Source: Bacteroidota bacterium
GTDB taxonomy: Bacteria; Bacteroidota; Bacteroidia; B-17B0; Aurantibacillaceae
NCBI GenBank assembly: GCA_029237825.1
Contig: JAQZBQ010000018.1
Location: 1 to 64,000, forward strand
Direction of reading: 5' to 3'
DNA length: 64,000 nt
In this document: one piece after another, positions 36,069 through 56,795 of the stretch
How positions within the stretch are numbered: position 1 is the stretch's first letter
How the letters are laid out: the number at the start of each line of letters is the position of its first letter
Translations under genes and position numbers: made by a program
Notes under the pieces: generated by a model
Told to the model about the DNA's origin: nothing
The model's database searches: none
The model's input: only the letters and a program-made list of their open reading frames with translations

Positions 36069-38699
36069 CTATTGCGAGCCAAATCTGAAGCCAAGAGCCG
36101 GCCTCGATTCCGATTCTTCGATAACAAGATGCTTTACATCATCAAACGTGAGGTGAATTAAATCTTCAGCACTACGGTCAGTACTGGCAATAGACGCCAT
36201 TCTCAAATTTTGTTTCATCACACACTCACTGATTGTTTGCCGGACAGTTCGGGCATTCCCGAAAAATTTATCCTTTTTATTGATCAATGAAGTAAAATAG
36301 GCATTGAGATGGTCTACCGCTTCCTGCGTCGCAGTTAGGCCTTCTTTCTTAAGCAGCTGATGAGCAATTGTTAAGAGTTGATCTACGTTATAATCCTGAA
36401 ACGAATACGTTTTATCAAATCGTGATTTTAAACCCGGATTCATTTCTACAAAACGGTGCATATTTTCAGGATACCCGGCAACGATAACGCCAAACTGTCC
36501 GCGCTTATCTTCCATTTGTTTTAGGATTACCTCAATGGCTTCTTTGCCGAAACCATTTTGTCCGTCTTCCGATAAAGCATAGGCTTCATCAATAAACAAT
36601 ACACCGCCCATTGCGGCATCCACTTTCTCCTTCGTTTTAAGAGCAGTTTGCCCAATGTATCCTGCAATTAACCCTTCCCTGTCTACTTCCACAACATGAC
36701 CGCGTTCCAATAATCCCAACGACTTATATATCTTAGCAATGATACGCGCCAGCGTTGTTTTTCCTGTTCCTGGATTACCGGTAAACACGGAGTGCAGGGA
36801 AAATTTATTCACCACATCTTTTCCTGTCTCATTATAGAAACGAATCAATTTTACCAGTTCATTTACGTCCTGTTTGATATTTTCCATACCAACCAATTCA
36901 TTCAATTCAGCAAGCGCCAGGTTTAATTCTTTTTCATTTACGGAAAGCTTCAATTTCTTCTTCTCTGTGGCCATGAAAACATTCTTCATATCTGCCAACG
37001 TAATAGTGGAAAGGTCTTCTTTGGTTAGGGCATCCATATTTTCAGATTTCATCAGACGTAAACCCATGTCCTGTTTAGCCTCCTCAATTACAGCGTTCAC
37101 AAAACGGGCATTCCCAAAACTATTGTCTCGCTTACGATAAGCTTCTGTGAGTTGTTCCTGTAAATACACCTGCGCTTCCGGAGCAATGGTAAGTTGTTTT
37201 TGTTCGGCGCAGTAAGTAGCAATTTGAAATAACTCATCAGGCATATAATCATCAAAATGAAAATAGTCTGAGAACCTTGACTTGAGACCAGGATTGCTGT
37301 CGATGAACGTATTCATTTCTTTAGGGTACCCTGCAACTATAATGGCAAGATCACCTTTTCCGTCACTCATTTCCTTTAATAAAATCTCGATCACTTCTTT
37401 ACCAAAATCTTTGCTGTCCTCTCCCGAACGTGCCAAAGAATACGCTTCGTCAATAAAAAGTATTCCGCCCCGTGCTTCATCTATAGCTTTTTTCACTTTA
37501 GGTGCAGTTTGCCCTATGTATTCGCCAACTAATACTGAACGATCAACCTCATATACATGCCCTTTACTTAAAAGACCCATTTTCTGATAAATCTTTCCTA
37601 ATTTTTTTACGACGGTTGTTTTGCCGGTACCAGGATTACCGGTAAAAACTGAATGGAGCGACAAAACTGATCCATCATCAAATCCCTTTTCTTTTCTGAG
37701 TTTAGTAAAATTAAGGTAGGTAATATTCTCATGGATGCTTTTCTTAACGTTCTCCAGGCCAATCAACGCGTCCACTTCCTTTAAAAGCTCATCCAGTGTT
37801 TTTTCGGATGGGTCAATCGTATTACCAACAATTGGCGAAGAAGTTCCCGAATTGATGGCAATGGTTTGATCGATGCTACTGATTAATTGTAGTTCCCCTT
37901 CCTCTTCCACGTTTTTACATTCGAATGTAACTGCGCCAATTAAAACATCCATGAACACAATTTCCAAAGCGTATTTATCGTCTTTCCATGACCCGGGAAT
38001 GGCGTTGCCCCAACCCAGATCCAGTGTATAGGAATAATCCTTTTTATTTGCATCAATGTAGCCGGTTTTCACCTGATGGGCTTTATGCTGTCCGGCATCA
38101 TCTACGTAATTTAAAAACAATTCGTAATTAAAGGCGAGGTTGGTTTGCGCTTTGATTTTAATTTCAGCCCAAACGTATTGTGTTTGCTCTTTATTAAAAC
38201 TTTTAAGGTATTTCCTCTGGCGCTGGTTCCATCCATCCACATCACCATGATAAAGTTTAACATGTTCAATTGAAAAGTAAGGATTAGAATCTTTTGTCAC
38301 TAGTCCAACATCCTCAACAAAAAATCGCTGTGATCCAACCACAACGCCATCTATGATTGCCACCCATTGATAGGTGCCCTTTTTCCAGAAAGCACCGAGG
38401 TTTGGAGTTCCCCAACCATCACGCACATAAAAGATATTTTCTTCTTTGCTTACCTTCAGTTCCGAGTCTAATGTGCAAATGGTTAAATTGCCTGAAGGAA
38501 GTATTTCTTCACATTTTACAGATACTTTGGCAGTCCAGTCTTCTTCATCAAATAATTTATTGTAAAGTGCCAGTTCGAAACGTAGGTAAGTTGTTTCTGC
38601 CTTATCAAAAATTGTGCGGTAACGCTTGGTTGAATTCGCCATCCACTCATCCGAAGAATAAGCAGAAAGGCTTTTAAATTTATATCGTCTATCCATCAT
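36069..38699 (-). CDS. Tandem AAA+ ATPase (CbbX/SpoVK type) with duplicated N-terminal domain
   Basis: 876 residues from the ATG at 38699, 4 bp after galE; a longer reading from 38744 would overlap galE. The N-terminus contains two related beta-rich repeats (about 5-130 and 135-255). Both have a basic-aromatic start (KRYRTIFDK / RKYLKSFNK), a GWG...G.WK...Y core and a closing F..E/K.V. Two CbbX-like AAA+ modules follow, each with GNPGTGKTT (near 350 and 640) and LFIDEAY (near 411 and 700), so both should bind and hydrolyse ATP. The second ends in a helical lid. CbbX-type ATPases remodel proteins, for example Rubisco activation. The target here is unknown. The glycan-locus context suggests an envelope or polysaccharide role. 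Confidence 0.88.
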   Translation of the reverse strand: MMDRRYKFKSLSAYSSDEWMANSTKRYRTIFDKAETTYLRFELALYNKLFDEEDWTAKVSVKCEEILPSGNLTICTLDSELKVSKEENIFYVRDGWGTPNLGAFWKKGTYQWVAIIDGVVVGSQRFFVEDVGLVTKDSNPYFSIEHVKLYHGDVDGWNQRQRKYLKSFNKEQTQYVWAEIKIKAQTNLAFNYELFLNYVDDAGQHKAHQVKTGYIDANKKDYSYTLDLGWGNAIPGSWKDDKYALEIVFMDVLIGAVTFECKNVEEEGELQLISSIDQTIAINSGTSSPIVGNTIDPSEKTLDELLKEVDALIGLENVKKSIHENITYLNFTKLRKEKGFDDGSVLSLHSVFTGNPGTGKTTVVKKLGKIYQKMGLLSKGHVYEVDRSVLVGEYIGQTAPKVKKAIDEARGGILFIDEAYSLARSGEDSKDFGKEVIEILLKEMSDGKGDLAIIVAGYPKEMNTFIDSNPGLKSRFSDYFHFDDYMPDELFQIATYCAEQKQLTIAPEAQVYLQEQLTEAYRKRDNSFGNARFVNAVIEEAKQDMGLRLMKSENMDALTKEDLSTITLADMKNVFMATEKKKLKLSVNEKELNLALAELNELVGMENIKQDVNELVKLIRFYNETGKDVVNKFSLHSVFTGNPGTGKTTLARIIAKIYKSLGLLERGHVVEVDREGLIAGYIGQTALKTKEKVDAAMGGVLFIDEAYALSEDGQNGFGKEAIEVILKQMEDKRGQFGVIVAGYPENMHRFVEMNPGLKSRFDKTYSFQDYNVDQLLTIAHQLLKKEGLTATQEAVDHLNAYFTSLINKKDKFFGNARTVRQTISECVMKQNLRMASIASTDRSAEDLIHLTFDDVKHLVIEESESRPALGFRFGSQ

Positions 38700-38703
38700 A
38701 GTA

Positions 38704-39744
38704 CTATTGTTCTTCTTTAAGATGCATCTGCCATTTCCAGGCACTTAACATCATATCATCCAGGTTATATTTTGGCTCCCAGTTAAGTTCCCGTTTAACC
38801 AAATCGTTGTTTGCGTAAATGCTGATTACATCACCAGCCCTTCGAGGCCCAATTTTATAATTTAATTTTTGTTGTGCCACTTTCTCAAAAGATCGAATTG
38901 CTTCCAACACACTAACGCCTTCTCCTGTTCCTAAATTAAAAATAGTGTTCTGAGCCTTTTGCTTATTTTCGATCAAGTAGTTTAAAGCTTTGACATGTGC
39001 GTCTGCAATATCGCTCACATGGATGTAATCGCGAATGCATGAACCATCGCGTGTATTGTAGTCATCGCCAAAAACAGTGAGTTGTTGCAAAATGCCCGCA
39101 GCGGTTTGGGTAATATAAGGTACAAGATTGTCTGGCCGATTTCGCGGAAGCTCCCCGTTGAAACCCGTTGGGTGCGCTCCAACAGGATTAAAGTAACGCA
39201 ATAGAACCGAGTTGAATCCGGAGGAAAACTTTGTATAATTTTCAACGATTTCTTCGCCCATCTGTTTAGTATGTGCATAAGGCGACTCCGCTTTAGAAAA
39301 AGGAGTTTGTTCTGTTACAGGCAAGGACTCTACATTTCCGTAAACCGAACATGACGAAGAAAATATGAAATTAGAAATCTCGAGGGCTTTGGAAATTTTT
39401 AAAATATTTACAAGCGAGGCAATGTTATTGTGGTAATATAACAGTGGATCAGCCACAGATTGAGGAACGGATTTAAATGCAGCGAAGTGGATAATACCTA
39501 TGGGATTTTTAACCTGCTCAATGGCGAGCTCCAACGCCTCGAGGTTACAGATGTCAACATTCAGATTTTTAACTTCCCTACCGGTGATAGCTTGTATCCG
39601 TTCAAAGGTTTTGGAAGTTGAATTTGAATAATTATCGATGGAAACAATGTTGTAATCTGTTTGTTTCAGCAGTTCTATAATGGTATGAGAGCCGATATAC
39701 CCTGCGCCGCCGGTAACGATAATAGTTGGGTTCTGGTTTGACAT
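38704..39744 (-). CDS. galE: UDP-glucose 4-epimerase
   Basis: 346 residues. It interconverts UDP-glucose and UDP-galactose (some also the N-acetyl forms), supplying sugars for the surface glycan. The NAD-binding motif is VTGGAGYIGSHTIIEL. The catalytic region is SSSCSVYGN and SPYAHTKQMGEE (Tyr/Lys). Substrate-side motifs are RYFNPVGAHPTG and DGSCIRDYIHVSDIADAH. The length is normal. It sits between the glycosyltransferase gene (3-bp gap) and the tandem AAA+ gene (4-bp gap), so the three form a tight operon. Confidence 0.96.
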   Translation of the reverse strand: MSNQNPTIIVTGGAGYIGSHTIIELLKQTDYNIVSIDNYSNSTSKTFERIQAITGREVKNLNVDICNLEALELAIEQVKNPIGIIHFAAFKSVPQSVADPLLYYHNNIASLVNILKISKALEISNFIFSSSCSVYGNVESLPVTEQTPFSKAESPYAHTKQMGEEIVENYTKFSSGFNSVLLRYFNPVGAHPTGFNGELPRNRPDNLVPYITQTAAGILQQLTVFGDDYNTRDGSCIRDYIHVSDIADAHVKALNYLIENKQKAQNTIFNLGTGEGVSVLEAIRSFEKVAQQKLNYKIGPRRAGDVISIYANNDLVKRELNWEPKYNLDDMMLSAWKWQMHLKEEQ

Positions 39745-39747
39745 AAA

Positions 39748-40980
39748 TTAATTAAATGAGTTATATATTTTTGAGTAACGATCAATTCCTTCATTCAGAG
39801 AGAAAAACTGATGCGCCGTGGATACCGTATTTTTTTGATACAAGTTAATATTTTCTACCAATTCATCGGCAACTATTCGATAATCGTTTTCATTAAAACC
39901 ACGAACAAGGATTCCACATTGGGATTTTGTAACAATGTCATCAACATCGCCAACCCCGGAATTTGTCACAACAGGAATTCCCATCGACAATAATTCGCCC
40001 ATTTTTGTGGGTGAAGATGCCGATTTTGAGAAACTTGGTTTAATAAAAAAAATAGAGGCTGAGGAAAGTGCAATATAACTCGGCATTTCATCCCTGGAAG
40101 CAGAAACCACCGTTATTTTTTCCAATGGAATTTCCTGCTTACTCGCAGCATCCAGTACCAGGTGGGGATCATCTTTAGTAATACACAGAAAGACAGCGTT
40201 AACTTTATTGGTTAGCACTTGAAAGAATTGAAGCATTTCATCGGCCATATACCAGGTACCTAAAGAACCGACATAACACAAAACGAATTTGCCGGATAAC
40301 TGGGGCAAACTGTTTTTTAAATGATTTAATTTTCCTGAATCAAGGCTGGAGTTTGAAAAATGCTTTAGATCAGCACAGCAAGGTATGACGTGAATTTTGC
40401 TTACGGCAATTCCCAGTTGCCAGTCCAGTATAATATCTTTAGCTTTTTTGGTGAGTGAAACAATTGAATCGGCCTCGCGGAGCATTGCTTTTTCCTTGTT
40501 TTTAAAGTAGGCGTACAAGAGTGCCCCAATAGGATTAGATTTCTTCCATATACCACCCTCGATGCGTTCATCCGCCCAAAAGCCCCTCATGTCAAAGATA
40601 AAGCGGATTTTAAATTTTTGCTTAAAATGAAGTCCTATTAATCCGGGCAAATAACTTCTGCAATGAAGAATGGTTCGTTCGTTTTGGAAAGCAAGCATTT
40701 TTGATACCTGTTGTTTCAATGCACAAAAATTCCGGTATTGTGAAATAAAAGGTAAGCCAGCGTGGTAAAAAGAAAATGTCCAGGAGATACCGGCTTTTTT
40801 CAGAATAGATTCAACGACCGAATGGTTTATACTCCAATTGGTCCTTTTCTCGCAGCTCACGATACCGATTTTGTACCCCTTTTGCGACAAACCAATAAGG
40901 TAGGGTAGCACCTGTGATTGCCCAAGTGGATCAGTCATACCATCAATGGAAACAAAGAGGAAGGTGGTGTTAGCGGCCAT
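39748..40980 (-). CDS. Glycosyltransferase, GT4-like GT-B fold
   Basis: 410 residues. The N-terminal half has a Rossmann-like acceptor domain (TTFLFVSIDGMTDPLGQSQVLPYLIGLSQKGY). The C-terminal donor domain contains GKFVLCYVGSLGTWYM and the nucleotide-sugar loop SPTKMGELLSMGIPVVTNSGVGDVDD, with the EX7E-like pattern weakened. Such enzymes add a sugar to a lipid-linked glycan at the membrane. The donor and acceptor cannot be read from sequence. It is first in the operon with galE and the AAA+ ATPase and is divergent from the multispanning protein by 32 bp. Confidence 0.85.
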   Translation of the reverse strand: MAANTTFLFVSIDGMTDPLGQSQVLPYLIGLSQKGYKIGIVSCEKRTNWSINHSVVESILKKAGISWTFSFYHAGLPFISQYRNFCALKQQVSKMLAFQNERTILHCRSYLPGLIGLHFKQKFKIRFIFDMRGFWADERIEGGIWKKSNPIGALLYAYFKNKEKAMLREADSIVSLTKKAKDIILDWQLGIAVSKIHVIPCCADLKHFSNSSLDSGKLNHLKNSLPQLSGKFVLCYVGSLGTWYMADEMLQFFQVLTNKVNAVFLCITKDDPHLVLDAASKQEIPLEKITVVSASRDEMPSYIALSSASIFFIKPSFSKSASSPTKMGELLSMGIPVVTNSGVGDVDDIVTKSQCGILVRGFNENDYRIVADELVENINLYQKNTVSTAHQFFSLNEGIDRYSKIYNSFN

Positions 40981-41012: not shown

Positions 41013-42353
41013 ATGAATCCCCTTTTAAGCATTTTTGATCTGCTGCTAACCCCTGTATATATTTTAGGGGCGTATATGTATGCGTACTGGGTTACAAAAC
41101 GAAATATCCGCCAAAAACCGGAGTATGCGTATTTTACAAAAGGTTTAATGGTACGGATTGGGGGCGCCATCGCCCTGGGGTTGGTGTATTTTTTTTATTA
41201 TAGCGGTGGCGATACGACGAATTATTTTCAGACTTCATCAGCCTATTCCAAACTTTTTTTTAAGGATCAGGAAAGCTTTTGGATTGGCTGGTTAGGGAAC
41301 GCAAAAGAACATTATTTTACTTTTGATGAAACAACGGGCTACCCCGTCTATGGAGCAAGGGATCACCATTCATTTTTTGTGGTGCGTTTATTAATTCCCA
41401 TTGTTACCCTTGGTTTCCATTCCTATTTTGCAACTGCGGTATTGGTAGCATGTATAACTTATGGTGGTTTATGGAAATTATACCAAACCTTCTTGCAGGA
41501 GTTTCCCCATCTCAAAAAAGAATTTGCCATTGCATGTCTGTTCATTCCATCCTGCGTGTTTTGGGGTTCCGGCCTGATGAAAGATTCATTTACTTTATCA
41601 GCTGTGGGATGGTTCACCTATGCGTTTTACCATTTTTTTATCAAAAAGAACCGAAACTTTGCATACAGTGCTTATTTACTTATTTCGGCCTTTATCATCC
41701 TTGCCATTAAGCCCTATATATTCTTTGCACTTCTTCCAGGTTCAATATTATGGCTAAGCAATAATCTGGTGAAAAAAATTAACCATGGTTTTGTGCGGTT
41801 GATAGCAACACCCATTATTTTAACGTTCGGTGCAATTGCCGCCTATTTTGCATTAGATCAAATGGGCGAAAACTTGGGGCAATATCAATTGGATAATGTA
41901 TTAGACAAAGCTGTCGTAACTCAAAAAGACATGAAAGCAGAGTATTACGGCGGAAAAACTTATGATATCGGAGAATTTGACGCTTCGATTGGCGGTGTCC
42001 TTTCTAAAGCCCCAATAGCTATTTTTTCTGGAATTTTTCGGCCGGGTTTATGGGATGTAAGGAATGCGGTTATGCTAATATCCTCCCTTGAGAATTCCTA
42101 TTTGTTAGTCCTAACTATTTTTCTGCTCATTAAACTTAAATTCTTTGGTTTTTTTACTTTGATTCGGAAAAACCCAATGCTCTTATTTTGTATGCTCTTT
42201 TCAATATTCTTTGCATTTTCGGTTGGACTAACAGTAGCCAATTTTGGATCACTTGTGAGGCTTCGATTGCCGGAACTTCCATTTTTTGTTGCGGGAATTT
42301 TCATGCTCAAGCATCTCTACGAAAAACAAAGCGGGGCAAAGATAAAATATTAG
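41013..42353 (+). CDS. Multispanning membrane protein, candidate polysaccharide polymerase
   Basis: 446 residues with about ten membrane segments (for example LLTPVYILGAYMYAYWV, FAYSAYLLISAFIILAIKPYIFFALLP). A large hydrophilic loop (about 285-335, DKAVVTQKDMKAEYYGGKTYD) lies before the last segments, as in Wzy and EpsG-type polymerases. The motif YYSGGDTTNYFQTS follows segment 2. No named family is recognised, so the polymerase idea rests on topology and on the position among glycosyltransferases. A flippase or ligase is equally possible. It overlaps the convergent transglutaminase-like gene by 4 bp. Confidence 0.7.
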   Translation: MNPLLSIFDLLLTPVYILGAYMYAYWVTKRNIRQKPEYAYFTKGLMVRIGGAIALGLVYFFYYSGGDTTNYFQTSSAYSKLFFKDQESFWIGWLGNAKEHYFTFDETTGYPVYGARDHHSFFVVRLLIPIVTLGFHSYFATAVLVACITYGGLWKLYQTFLQEFPHLKKEFAIACLFIPSCVFWGSGLMKDSFTLSAVGWFTYAFYHFFIKKNRNFAYSAYLLISAFIILAIKPYIFFALLPGSILWLSNNLVKKINHGFVRLIATPIILTFGAIAAYFALDQMGENLGQYQLDNVLDKAVVTQKDMKAEYYGGKTYDIGEFDASIGGVLSKAPIAIFSGIFRPGLWDVRNAVMLISSLENSYLLVLTIFLLIKLKFFGFFTLIRKNPMLLFCMLFSIFFAFSVGLTVANFGSLVRLRLPELPFFVAGIFMLKHLYEKQSGAKIKY

Positions 42354-53369: not shown

Positions 53370-56300
53370 ATGTTTTATTTTATTAAAAAAATACATAGGA
53401 TTACTTTTCTAATAACCATCGTATTAAATAATTTAGCAACTATTTCTCAAACCTCTTTTAGGCCTTCCGATATTCCTGGCTTGAAATTGTGGCTTCGATC
53501 AGATACAGGGATTGCTTTGAGCGGAAATCTGGTGAATTATTGGAATGATATAAGCGGCAATAATAACAATGCATTTCAAACCATCAACTCTATAATGCCA
53601 ACTTGGATTGTTTCCGATACATTGCTTAACAATTATCCGGCTGTTAAATTTGATGGTGCTGGTTCAATGATGCAAACAATGTTTGGCCAGCCCGATGCGT
53701 ATACCATATTTATAATATATTCGCACAGATCTGGAGTTAACGGATCATTTTACAGCACTAATCAGTCAGGTTATCCACTCCAAAGAAATTCTACAATATG
53801 GCCAAATTCAAATGTTGCGCCTTACAACATAGGAGGGGGAGATTTGTTAAATATAAGAAATCTTTATGTTGATGTGCACGATTTCCTGAATGATAGCTAT
53901 GCGACATATTTAAATGGAATAAACCGGGGTGGCTTTAACGTTCCCATTTCAAAGAGTGGAGGAGTCTTTAATATAGGCTCGGGTGGCGGGGAACCACTTG
54001 ATGCAAATATTGCTGAATTTTTAATTTACGATCAACCTCTATTGGATTCTTCAAGAATTAAAGTGGAAAACTATTTAATGGGTCGATATGCGCCTCCAGT
54101 GAGTTTAGGAGCAGATAAAATAGTTTGCAGTCTCCCAATTACATTGAAGGCAAAAAAAAATCACTTCACTAATTATCTATGGCAGAATGGGTCAACCGCT
54201 GATTCAATAGTGGTAACTACCCAAGGGGATTATTATGTAAAAACTCAGGATATATTTGGGAAGGTCAGTTTTGATACTATAAATGTAACTTTAGATAACT
54301 CAACTTGGGTTGTCAGTTTACCAAATGATACAACGATTTGTTTAGGAAAATCTATTAAAATAACTGCTGGTCCTGATCATTTAAGTTATTATTGGTCACA
54401 TGGTTCAACTTCAAATTTAATAACCGCTAATCTATCCGGTTTATACAAAGTCTTGGTGACAGATTGTTTTGGGAATTTATCAAGTGACTCCATACAGATA
54501 AATATACAACCTTTACCATCATTTAACTTTGGAGGCAATGACACAATTATTTGTCACAACTCCAATTTTGTCCTAGATCCTGATTTTTTAAATTCAATTC
54601 CTTTCAACTTCTACTGGAATGATAATACCCATGATTCTATCCATCCCATATCCCAAAACGGGCTATATATTTTAAATGTGGTGGACAATATTGGCTGTTC
54701 GTTTTCGGATACAATAAATATACAAATAGACACATTATTGAAAACAGCATCCCTCGGCCCCGACGTTTCCCTTTGTGCCGGCAACTCCATTTCTTTAATC
54801 AATGGTGCTTCATCCGCGTCCAGTTACACCTGGAACACCGGTTCGAATAACGATTCGCTTCTCATTACCAACGCCGGGCAATATTCGGTTATTGTCACCA
54901 ATACCAATAACTGCATTGCCAAAGACACGATCAATGTATCTATTCAGGGACAGGCTCCTGTTGCGAATTTTAGCAGCAGCGTTGGCTGCCAAAACAAAGC
55001 CTTAAGTTTCACCAATTTGTCCTCTCCTCCATCCGGTAATATAATAAACTCAAGCTACTGGGATTTTGGGGATATAGCATCCCCAACAAACACCTCAACA
55101 GCTTCGAATCCATTCCATACCTATTCGGACACCGGAACCTATACGGTTCGCCTGAATGTTATGACAGACGCCGGTTGCCAGCAAGCCATTACCAAAACCA
55201 TCCATATCGCGCCTAACCCAACTGTTAATTTTTCAATTGGCAATTCCTGCCAAAATGATAGTACAGCCTTTTCAAACCAGAGCACCAGTCTTAACGGTTA
55301 TCCAAATACTTCCATTAACTGGAACTTTGGCGATCCTGCAAGTGGGTCATCCAATATTTCCACAAAGGTAAACCCAAAGCACCTTTTTAGTTCGGCCTCA
55401 AATTATACAATAACCCTAAGTGTTAGTAATGCTGCATCCTGTACTGCTTCATTAACCAACATCATTTCCGTAAAGCCCCAGGTGAAAGCAGATTTTAATT
55501 ACTCGACGCCATGCACTAATACCACCACTGTTTTTCAGGATAATTCCATTGCATCATCGTCGGCAGCAAATACACGATCCTGGAATTTTGGTGGACCTTT
55601 AGCATCAGGATTAACTGTTTCCAGGACTTATACAGCAACCGGCCCTTATAATGTTTCCCTGACAGTCAACGTCAACGGATGTATATCCACTAAAACGAAA
55701 ATCGTCACCATTTTCTCACCTCCGATTTCCAACTTTACAGTGCCTACCATCTGTGCTAAAGATACCGTTACGCTGGTTAACTCATCCTTAGCACAAAGCG
55801 GAATACTTTCATCTTTCAACTGGAAACTTAATGGCAATACCTTCTCGTCTGTTTCCAATCCCACATTGGCACTCATGGCACCGGGAAATTACCCGGTTAA
55901 GTTAACCGTCACAAACTCCTACGGATGCACGGATTCAATTTCCAAATCACTTTTAGTCAATTCTTTACCAAACGCTGCCTTTACTACAAACCCTCCAGAT
56001 TATTACTATCTGAATGAACCGGTTCAGTTTATTCCGGTTGTTACCAACGCTGCTTCCTACAATTGGAGTTTAGGAAATGGCTCTACTTCAACGCTTCAAA
56101 GTCCCTCCATTTCATTTAATTCAGAAAATTCCTTTACGGTTTCCCTCACACTTTCGGATGCTCAGGGATGTCAAAATTCCTTAACAAAAACCATTTTTAT
56201 TTCAAAACGCTTTCTTGACCTTGCACTGTTAAACATATCCTCTATCAAAGACGATGATGGTTTTATAACTGTTGTGGCCGACATTGCCAATTACGGAACC

Positions 56301-56795
56301 GTTAAGGCTTCGCAAATGGAATTACAATACCAGATCAGTGATGGCGGAACAAATAAAGAAAACTGGAGCGGTGTTCTTAACCCGAATGCTTTTTTTACTT
56401 ACACCTTTAATTCCAAAAGCGTTTCCGATCAAACTAATGCCAATCCGATCACCTGCGTGACAATAAAAAAGGTAAATGGCGGGATGGATGAAAGATTAGA
56501 TAATAATGAGTTGTGCAGTGCCTTAATTTATGATGAGATTTCGGTGTTAAACCCATTTCCGAATCCTACATATGAGAATCTGAACATTCCTGTAATTCTG
56601 AATAAGGATGCGGAAATCAGTTTAACGATTTATAATTCAACCGGCCAATTAATACAGGAAAAAACGGGTCAAAAAGGCACAGCCGGATTGACTTTTATCT
56701 CAATTCCAACAATCACTTACAGTTGGGGAACTTACCTCATTAAAATAACCATCGACGACAAGGTATTTATTAAAAAGTTCGTCAAGGCCAATTAA
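53370..56795 (+). CDS. Large secreted PKD-repeat protein with type IX secretion sorting domain
   Basis: 1141 residues. After a signal peptide (FLITIVLNNLATISQ) comes a LamG/concanavalin-like domain (about 30-240, GLKLWLRSDTG, YWNDISGNNNNAFQ, PAVKFDG). Then follow SprB-like Ig repeats (about 245-520; LGADKIVC, YLWQNGSTADSI, GDYYVKTQD). Next are PKD domains (about 525-940; SSYWDFGD, FHTYSDTGTYTVRL, NFGDPASGSSN), a CARDB-like segment (about 945-1050) and a C-terminal Por sorting domain (about 1060-1141, NPFPNPTYENLNI, ISLTIYNSTGQLI, GTYLIKITIDDKVFIKKFVK). It should be exported by type IX secretion and attached to the surface as an adhesin. Base composition changes sharply near codon 457. Confidence 0.93.
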   Translation: MFYFIKKIHRITFLITIVLNNLATISQTSFRPSDIPGLKLWLRSDTGIALSGNLVNYWNDISGNNNNAFQTINSIMPTWIVSDTLLNNYPAVKFDGAGSMMQTMFGQPDAYTIFIIYSHRSGVNGSFYSTNQSGYPLQRNSTIWPNSNVAPYNIGGGDLLNIRNLYVDVHDFLNDSYATYLNGINRGGFNVPISKSGGVFNIGSGGGEPLDANIAEFLIYDQPLLDSSRIKVENYLMGRYAPPVSLGADKIVCSLPITLKAKKNHFTNYLWQNGSTADSIVVTTQGDYYVKTQDIFGKVSFDTINVTLDNSTWVVSLPNDTTICLGKSIKITAGPDHLSYYWSHGSTSNLITANLSGLYKVLVTDCFGNLSSDSIQINIQPLPSFNFGGNDTIICHNSNFVLDPDFLNSIPFNFYWNDNTHDSIHPISQNGLYILNVVDNIGCSFSDTINIQIDTLLKTASLGPDVSLCAGNSISLINGASSASSYTWNTGSNNDSLLITNAGQYSVIVTNTNNCIAKDTINVSIQGQAPVANFSSSVGCQNKALSFTNLSSPPSGNIINSSYWDFGDIASPTNTSTASNPFHTYSDTGTYTVRLNVMTDAGCQQAITKTIHIAPNPTVNFSIGNSCQNDSTAFSNQSTSLNGYPNTSINWNFGDPASGSSNISTKVNPKHLFSSASNYTITLSVSNAASCTASLTNIISVKPQVKADFNYSTPCTNTTTVFQDNSIASSSAANTRSWNFGGPLASGLTVSRTYTATGPYNVSLTVNVNGCISTKTKIVTIFSPPISNFTVPTICAKDTVTLVNSSLAQSGILSSFNWKLNGNTFSSVSNPTLALMAPGNYPVKLTVTNSYGCTDSISKSLLVNSLPNAAFTTNPPDYYYLNEPVQFIPVVTNAASYNWSLGNGSTSTLQSPSISFNSENSFTVSLTLSDAQGCQNSLTKTIFISKRFLDLALLNISSIKDDDGFITVVADIANYGTVKASQMELQYQISDGGTNKENWSGVLNPNAFFTYTFNSKSVSDQTNANPITCVTIKKVNGGMDERLDNNELCSALIYDEISVLNPFPNPTYENLNIPVILNKDAEISLTIYNSTGQLIQEKTGQKGTAGLTFISIPTITYSWGTYLIKITIDDKVFIKKFVKAN

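Follow-up and report, generated by a model that had tools for sequence, protein, structure and literature searches.

The characterised AAA+ ATPases of the SpoVK/CbbX/EccA clade are narrow chaperones that recruit their clients through diverse N-terminal domains, SpoVK activating the glycosyltransferase MurG, and the main study of the clade reports no association with a peptidase (PMC10659427). Threading by CbbX requires its pore-loop tyrosine, Y114 (PMC5437159). Clp ATPases engage ClpP via flexible loops carrying the tripeptide (L/I/V)-G-(F/L) (PMC8745299; PMC9035409), which has also served as a marker that sets ClpP partners apart from ClpB, an independent disaggregase (PMC10149685), and Cdc48 is a type II AAA protein whose C-terminal tripeptide docks it on a peptidase (PMC6008533).

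The window, i.e. the whole 64,000-nt stretch of DNA that was analysed, carries on its minus strand a gene for a tandem AAA+ protein in which two N-terminal beta domains (N1 and N2), two AAA+ modules (D1 and D2) and a short tail follow one another (Table 1). The frame starts with the ATG at 38699 and ends with the stop codon at 36069-36071; an in-frame GTG at 38744 is a possible alternative start, but relatives begin at the ATG. One copy of the gene is present in the 3.55-Mb genome, which is 99.7% complete, and the family to which it belongs is a single-copy, uncharacterised one of Bacteroidota. The 2+2 layout claimed in the first-pass annotation is real, as evidenced by Pfam, NCBIfam and an hhalign comparison of the two N-terminal domains. 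AlphaFold2 (AF2) modelling of the full chain gave confident domains in an arrangement that is not fixed (pTM 0.38). Functionally the protein resembles a type II AAA+ unfoldase of the SpoVK/CbbX clade; by the defining tests it is a member of none of CbbX, SpoVK and Hsp100/Clp. No description of such a protein came up in the open full texts searched.

Table 1. Features of the tandem AAA+ gene and its upstream neighbours (positions in the window).
Feature	Position	Strand	Remark
Whole gene, tandem AAA+ ATPase N1-N2-D1-D2-tail	36069..38699	(-)	876 aa, stop codon included
N1, first beta-sandwich domain	38307..38687	(-)	residues ~5-131; AF2 pLDDT ~90, conserved, homologous to N2
N2, second beta-sandwich domain	37905..38288	(-)	residues ~138-265
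N2-D1 linker	37800..37904	(-)	poorly conserved; AF2 pLDDT < 50 at residues 276-298
D1, SpoVK/CbbX-clade AAA+ module	36984..37799	(-)	Pfam, PDB match to CbbX, motifs
D1 Walker A GNPGTGKTT	37614-37640	(-)	
D1 pore loop EYIGQT	37506-37523	(-)	
D1 Walker B	37446-37463	(-)	
D2, second AAA+ module	36150..36932	(-)	Pfam, PDB match, motifs
D2 Walker A	36753-36779	(-)	
D2 Walker B	36585-36602	(-)	
D2 lid end and C-terminal tail	36072..36149	(-)	residues 851-876
LGF tripeptide	36087..36095	(-)	residues 869-871; sole conserved tail element, ClpP-docking-like
galE-like epimerase	38704..39744	(-)	4 nt between its stop codon and the AAA+ ATG
GT4-type glycosyltransferase	39748..40980	(-)	3 nt upstream of galE

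Both AAA+ modules are intact, as had been claimed, with Pfam AAA and AAA_lid_6 each found twice, and the NCBIfam models of SpoVK, CbbX and EccA each match the protein twice. The description of the protein as CbbX-like was borne out by PDB matches of the modules to CbbX at 5e-55 and 6e-48; both modules also match EccA1 in the PDB. In addition to the motifs in Table 1, D1 carries NPGLKSR and the lid motif GNAR with its sensor-2 arginine, and D2 the pore loop GYIGQT, NPGLKSR and GNAR, of which NPGLKSR and GNAR, together with a sensor-1 AGY present in both modules, are signatures of the SpoVK-EccA-CbbX clade. Walker A and B, sensor-1 GY, NPG..SR (with the candidate arginine finger) and GNAR are kept in both modules in at least 78 of 79 members of the double type, i.e. 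proteins with two AAA+ modules. Position Asn+4 is Lys in most members, while Asn+6 is an invariant Arg and the candidate for the finger, and the pore-loop aromatic residue (Tyr/Phe) and the arginine of both modules align with CbbX.

Scores against the individual families stay below their cut-offs. With the SpoVK orthologue model (TIGR02881) the modules reach 284.5 and 262.3 bits against a cut-off of 422.95, which is passed only by the sum of the two; the CbbX model gives 441.5 bits even over two modules against a cut-off of 459.25; and the EccA score lies below its cut-off. The protein also contains no TPR, which EccA has at its N-terminus. EccB had no match in the genome, but the search control was also silent. 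A role as Rubisco activase, encoded in the case of CbbX together with a red-type Rubisco, was rejected because the genome has no RuBisCO large subunit (search control positive), and a sporulation role as for SpoVK of sporulating Firmicutes because it has no SpoIVA (control positive in B. subtilis). Hsp100/Clp identity was likewise rejected, PF10431 (ClpB_D2-small) being found at three places in the same genome and at none in the AAA+ gene. PADLOC matched only generic AAA entries (IetA and TRIP13, partial, E 1e-12 to 1e-17) and no defence neighbours of the gene were seen, so that anti-phage defence was set aside, and so was a plasmid-borne family, for no PLSDB record in a tblastn search covers 80% of the query and the best matches fall in the AAA region.

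N1 and N2 were modelled as Ig/FnIII-like beta sandwiches of ~125 residues (AF2, mean pLDDT 88.6). That the N-terminal domain is duplicated was corroborated by hhalign of the N1 and N2 sub-alignments (probability 97.6, E 3e-12), and the repeat cores pointed out at first pass (KRY..FDK / RKY..FNK and GWG..G.(F)WK) proved to be conserved across relatives. The domain also deserves to be called unrecognised: residues 1-295 match no Pfam family at cut-off, and a profile search with the N-terminal repeats, as proposed in the first-pass annotation, matched no PDB sequence. Tag1_N, DUF3859 and PapC_N were considered and rejected with E-values of 0.034, 0.0024 and 5e-5, all below cut-off; DUF3859 has no match in the genome, though its control was silent too. 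A conserved NKLFDEEDW segment in N1, mostly placed within a loop of the AF2 model, is a good candidate for an interaction site. Pairs of the beta domain also occur without AAA+ modules, in stand-alone and probably exported proteins (L175:8475-9311, L178:8526-9362, L245:3170-3997 and L177:8113-10098 (-)) whose layout recalls RbmA; those of 275-278 aa start with a signal-like stretch.

The N-terminal region is present in 39 of 100 relatives and in 22 of 395 genomes of the phylum, and a GTDB contig scan returned 423 confirmed matches, the best 80 of which all come from records labelled Bacteroidota or Chlorobiota. The lineage is uncultured, its named relatives being metagenome bins. The presence of the tandem AAA+ gene is patchy, within the genus too, suggesting that it serves an accessory function. 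A different class of the phylum has the beta domain in 46 of 197 genomes, some families having the double type and others a triple type of ~1300 aa, in which a TPR region and one beta domain precede three SpoVK/CbbX-type AAA+ modules (L176, L179-L184, L186 and L187); domain E-values in triple-type and stand-alone proteins range from 1e-9 to 1e-23. In a tree of 89 AAA+ modules from the double and triple types, double D1 groups with triple D1 (support 99/99) and the D2 modules of both types split off together from the rest (100/99), from which it appears that the D1-D2 tandem is older than the split of the two forms. The same tree ruled out a recent duplication of one AAA module. Catalytic motifs are lost in some triple-type D2 and D3 modules, the Walker motifs of such modules in L182 being an example. 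A shortened member of 764 aa (L185:8201-10495 (-)) has one beta domain, one intact AAA+ module and one degenerate AAA+ module, the last grouping with D3 in the tree. In two genomes (L182 and L185) the multi-AAA gene is immediately preceded, on its own strand, by groES-groEL.

An LGF-type motif in the C-terminal tail was overlooked in the first-pass annotation. After the D2 lid there are ~20-25 poorly conserved residues, 863-876 being predicted to be disordered, with one fixed element, [LIVMF]-Gly-[Phe/Tyr]. Of 97 distinct double-type proteins, 96 have it (LGF 57, IGF 16, MGF 13, VGF 6, FGF 3 and LGY 1); the exception, L124, has an aberrant end of sequence and may be frame-shifted. Within the motif Gly is found in 96/96 and Phe in 95/96, the ten residues preceding it include none common to more than one third of the proteins, and it is followed by 0-8 residues, forming the very C-terminal end in 15 proteins. 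It is also carried by each of the 19 double-type proteins that were added from other families, 14 of these belonging to a second class, against a background of 8 in 902 other ORFs of the fetched loci with [LIVM]GF within the last 22 residues. Hydrophobic-Gly-Phe/Tyr has practically no other occurrence within the tandem AAA+ protein, and the tail motif was seen in none of ten triple-type relatives examined and none of four outside members of the clade. As the tripeptide stays fixed while the disordered tail around it drifts, it reads as the signature of a short docking motif.

The ATPases that feed ClpP are a small, well-studied set of Hsp100 proteins whose docking motif sits in an internal loop rather than C-terminally, and the usual docking tripeptide of ClpX is IGF or LGF. 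In the genome analysed here, the corresponding regions of ClpC and ClpX read VGF and VGY, respectively (ClpX at G000:C20, locus L251:281-1522 (+)), so that the lone LGY among the tails fits too. Judged from its sequence, the tandem AAA+ protein probably works like a ClpP partner. We put at about 0.55 the probability that it is a double-ring unfoldase of the SpoVK/CbbX/EccA clade whose beta domains recruit clients for delivery to ClpP. The wider proposal that it represents a third, phylogenetically independent kind of bacterial ClpP unfoldase, with a paired beta-sandwich receptor and an LGF tail and older than the split of the two classes, is an even bet. ClpP is encoded in 13 of 13 genomes checked, which does not discriminate because ClpP is near-universal; no clp gene was seen beside the tandem AAA+ gene, the hydrophobic-Gly-Phe tail could bind another pocket, and partnership with ClpP runs against the current description of the clade. 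In this assembly the clpP frame (G000:C33, L254:681-1307 (+)) departs from all relatives after KELYEI and has lost the usual C-terminal part, including the region of the catalytic Asp; clpP is intact in relatives of the same genus, and the lesion is either an assembly error or real.

By analogy with the clade and with type II AAA proteins, six subunits would stack two AAA+ rings, D1 on D2, while the paired N1-N2 domains on their flexible linker would recruit a narrow set of clients. Both ATP-driven rings would grip the client by the pore-loop Tyr/Phe and thread it, as extrapolated from CbbX, and the hydrophobic-Gly-Phe of the D2 tail would dock in the hydrophobic pockets of ClpP, thereby coupling threading to degradation. 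The order N domains-D1-D2-tail would put the receptor at one end and the peptidase at the other, as in ClpA/ClpC. In the clade of the window, clients may perhaps include enzymes of the adjacent surface-glycan locus.

The strongest rival to the ClpP reading draws on that locus: a non-proteolytic remodelling chaperone for an envelope or surface-glycan enzyme, whose LGF tail would serve ring assembly or partner binding. SpoVK with MurG and CbbX with Rubisco are precedents. At first pass the gene was described as cotranscribed with galE and a glycosyltransferase; it is tightly packed behind them, and from the spacings given in Table 1 cotranscription of galE and the AAA+ gene may be inferred. Farther out lie GT2, GT4 and GT61 glycosyltransferases, methyltransferases, two DegT aminotransferases, an asparagine-synthase-like protein and an ABC exporter, so that the gene sits at the edge of a surface-glycan locus. 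A PKD-repeat protein of 1141 aa, whose C-terminal domain is of the type IX secretion kind, is also encoded inside the locus (53370-56795 (+)). Opposite to the glycan genes lies a 446-aa hydrophobic protein without Pfam match (41013-42353 (+)), conserved in most galE-linked loci and possibly a polymerase or flippase.

How far the glycan link extends was seen when the neighbourhood was mapped on a tree of 79 full-length proteins. Adjacency to galE is kept in 14 of the 15 rows of one clade, the remaining row being cut off by its contig end, and in two rows of the sister clade, 12 rows of which have another glycosyltransferase downstream; one extra row scored as galE has it two genes away, probably incidentally. 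Main-clade rows with galE right beside the gene have gaps of 1-22 nt, negative values reflecting alternative starts farther upstream or a contig end left open, and galE is kept in its clade while other neighbours change. Elsewhere the neighbours, as named from their sequences, are a nitronate monooxygenase-like protein, an acyl-CoA ligase-like protein, peptide deformylase, an RNA polymerase sigma factor and a CheR-like methyltransferase, and no universal operon partner was found across ~95 loci. The neighbourhood survey proposed at first pass thus gives unrelated contexts for most relatives, which refutes a family-wide tie to galE and surface glycans; such a role may still hold at the level of one clade. 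The more general suggestion of a partner remodeler with a doubled, unrecognised N-terminal domain is supported by the varied recruiting domains of known clade members, by the full set of catalytic motifs in both motors and by the tight packing at the edge of the glycan locus. The glycan link may be real for the clade of the window but does not define the family. The link on which a glycan-enzyme chaperone draws is limited to a lineage, and this account leaves the invariant hydrophobic-Gly-Phe tail unexplained; we consider it possible but rather unlikely, though compatible with the ClpP reading should the clients be glycan enzymes that undergo degradation.

It is improbable that the N domains bind sugars or a lipid-linked glycan in the cytosol and gate the motor in the way that CbbX is gated by RuBP. 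The top PDB match of N1-N2 in Foldseek (E 4e-9) is RbmA, which has tandem FnIII domains and binds a biofilm polysaccharide (PMC5605196), the carbohydrate-binding domain of Wzt, cytosolic and ATPase-attached, ranks high among the structural matches (Z 10.2), and pairs of the domain stand alone in the probably exported proteins mentioned above. However, many unrelated Ig-like proteins came up at Z 9-11 in structural re-alignment, and as functional evidence the RbmA match was indistinguishable from generic Ig matches in the first fold search; no sequence profile connects the domain with RbmA or with any chain in the PDB, and no binding site was identified in N1-N2. The modelled beta sandwich is a common fold, from which no function of N1-N2 follows. 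Still less probable is a tail that keeps the double ring assembled as a structural latch, docked on D2 of the next subunit, since its position directly after D2 and its absence from triple-AAA forms, which have a third ring there instead, are outweighed by the varying distance of the motif from the C-terminus (0-8 residues follow it) in a tail otherwise devoid of conserved residues, by the disorder predicted for the monomer and by a likeness to the Clp tripeptide that would have to be coincidence.

If the ClpP reading is true, Bacteroidota would have an extra route of protein degradation, arising from a clade so far described as peptidase-free, and a new substrate-receptor domain, with some clients perhaps in surface-glycan synthesis. 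The clade has in any case evolved stacked two- and three-motor forms, the tail motif being seen in those with two.

Compared with known systems, N1-N2 resembles RbmA in having two tandem beta sandwiches, but RbmA is secreted, lacks AAA+ modules and gives no sequence-profile match, and whole-chain superposition is poor (TM 0.26). The triple form shares a homologous beta domain (HMM E 1e-9 to 1e-17) and D1 and D2 modules that group with those of the double type, from which it differs in its TPR N-terminus, single beta domain, extra D3 and missing tail motif. Cdc48/VCP, with its HbYX tripeptide, is likewise a type II AAA protein with a C-terminal tripeptide and a known peptidase docking (PMC6008533), whereas it belongs to another AAA subfamily, has another N domain and has the 20S proteasome rather than ClpP as partner. 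ClpA/ClpC (Hsp100, including ClpI) share the order N domain, D1 and D2, two active motors and a flexible hydrophobic-Gly-Phe motif on D2; in contrast, the motors of the tandem protein are of the SpoVK/CbbX type with AAA_lid_6 and without ClpB_D2-small, its motif is on the C-terminal tail and it has no M domain. The SpoVK/CbbX/EccA clade itself is the closest in its motors, by the NCBIfam and PDB matches of both and by GY, NPG..SR and GNAR, and in having a variable N-terminal recruiting domain (PMC10659427); unlike SpoVK and CbbX systems, the tandem protein occurs in a genome without Rubisco and SpoIVA, and unlike the single-module members of the clade it combines two AAA+ modules with a new paired beta-sandwich N-terminus and a hydrophobic-Gly-Phe tail.
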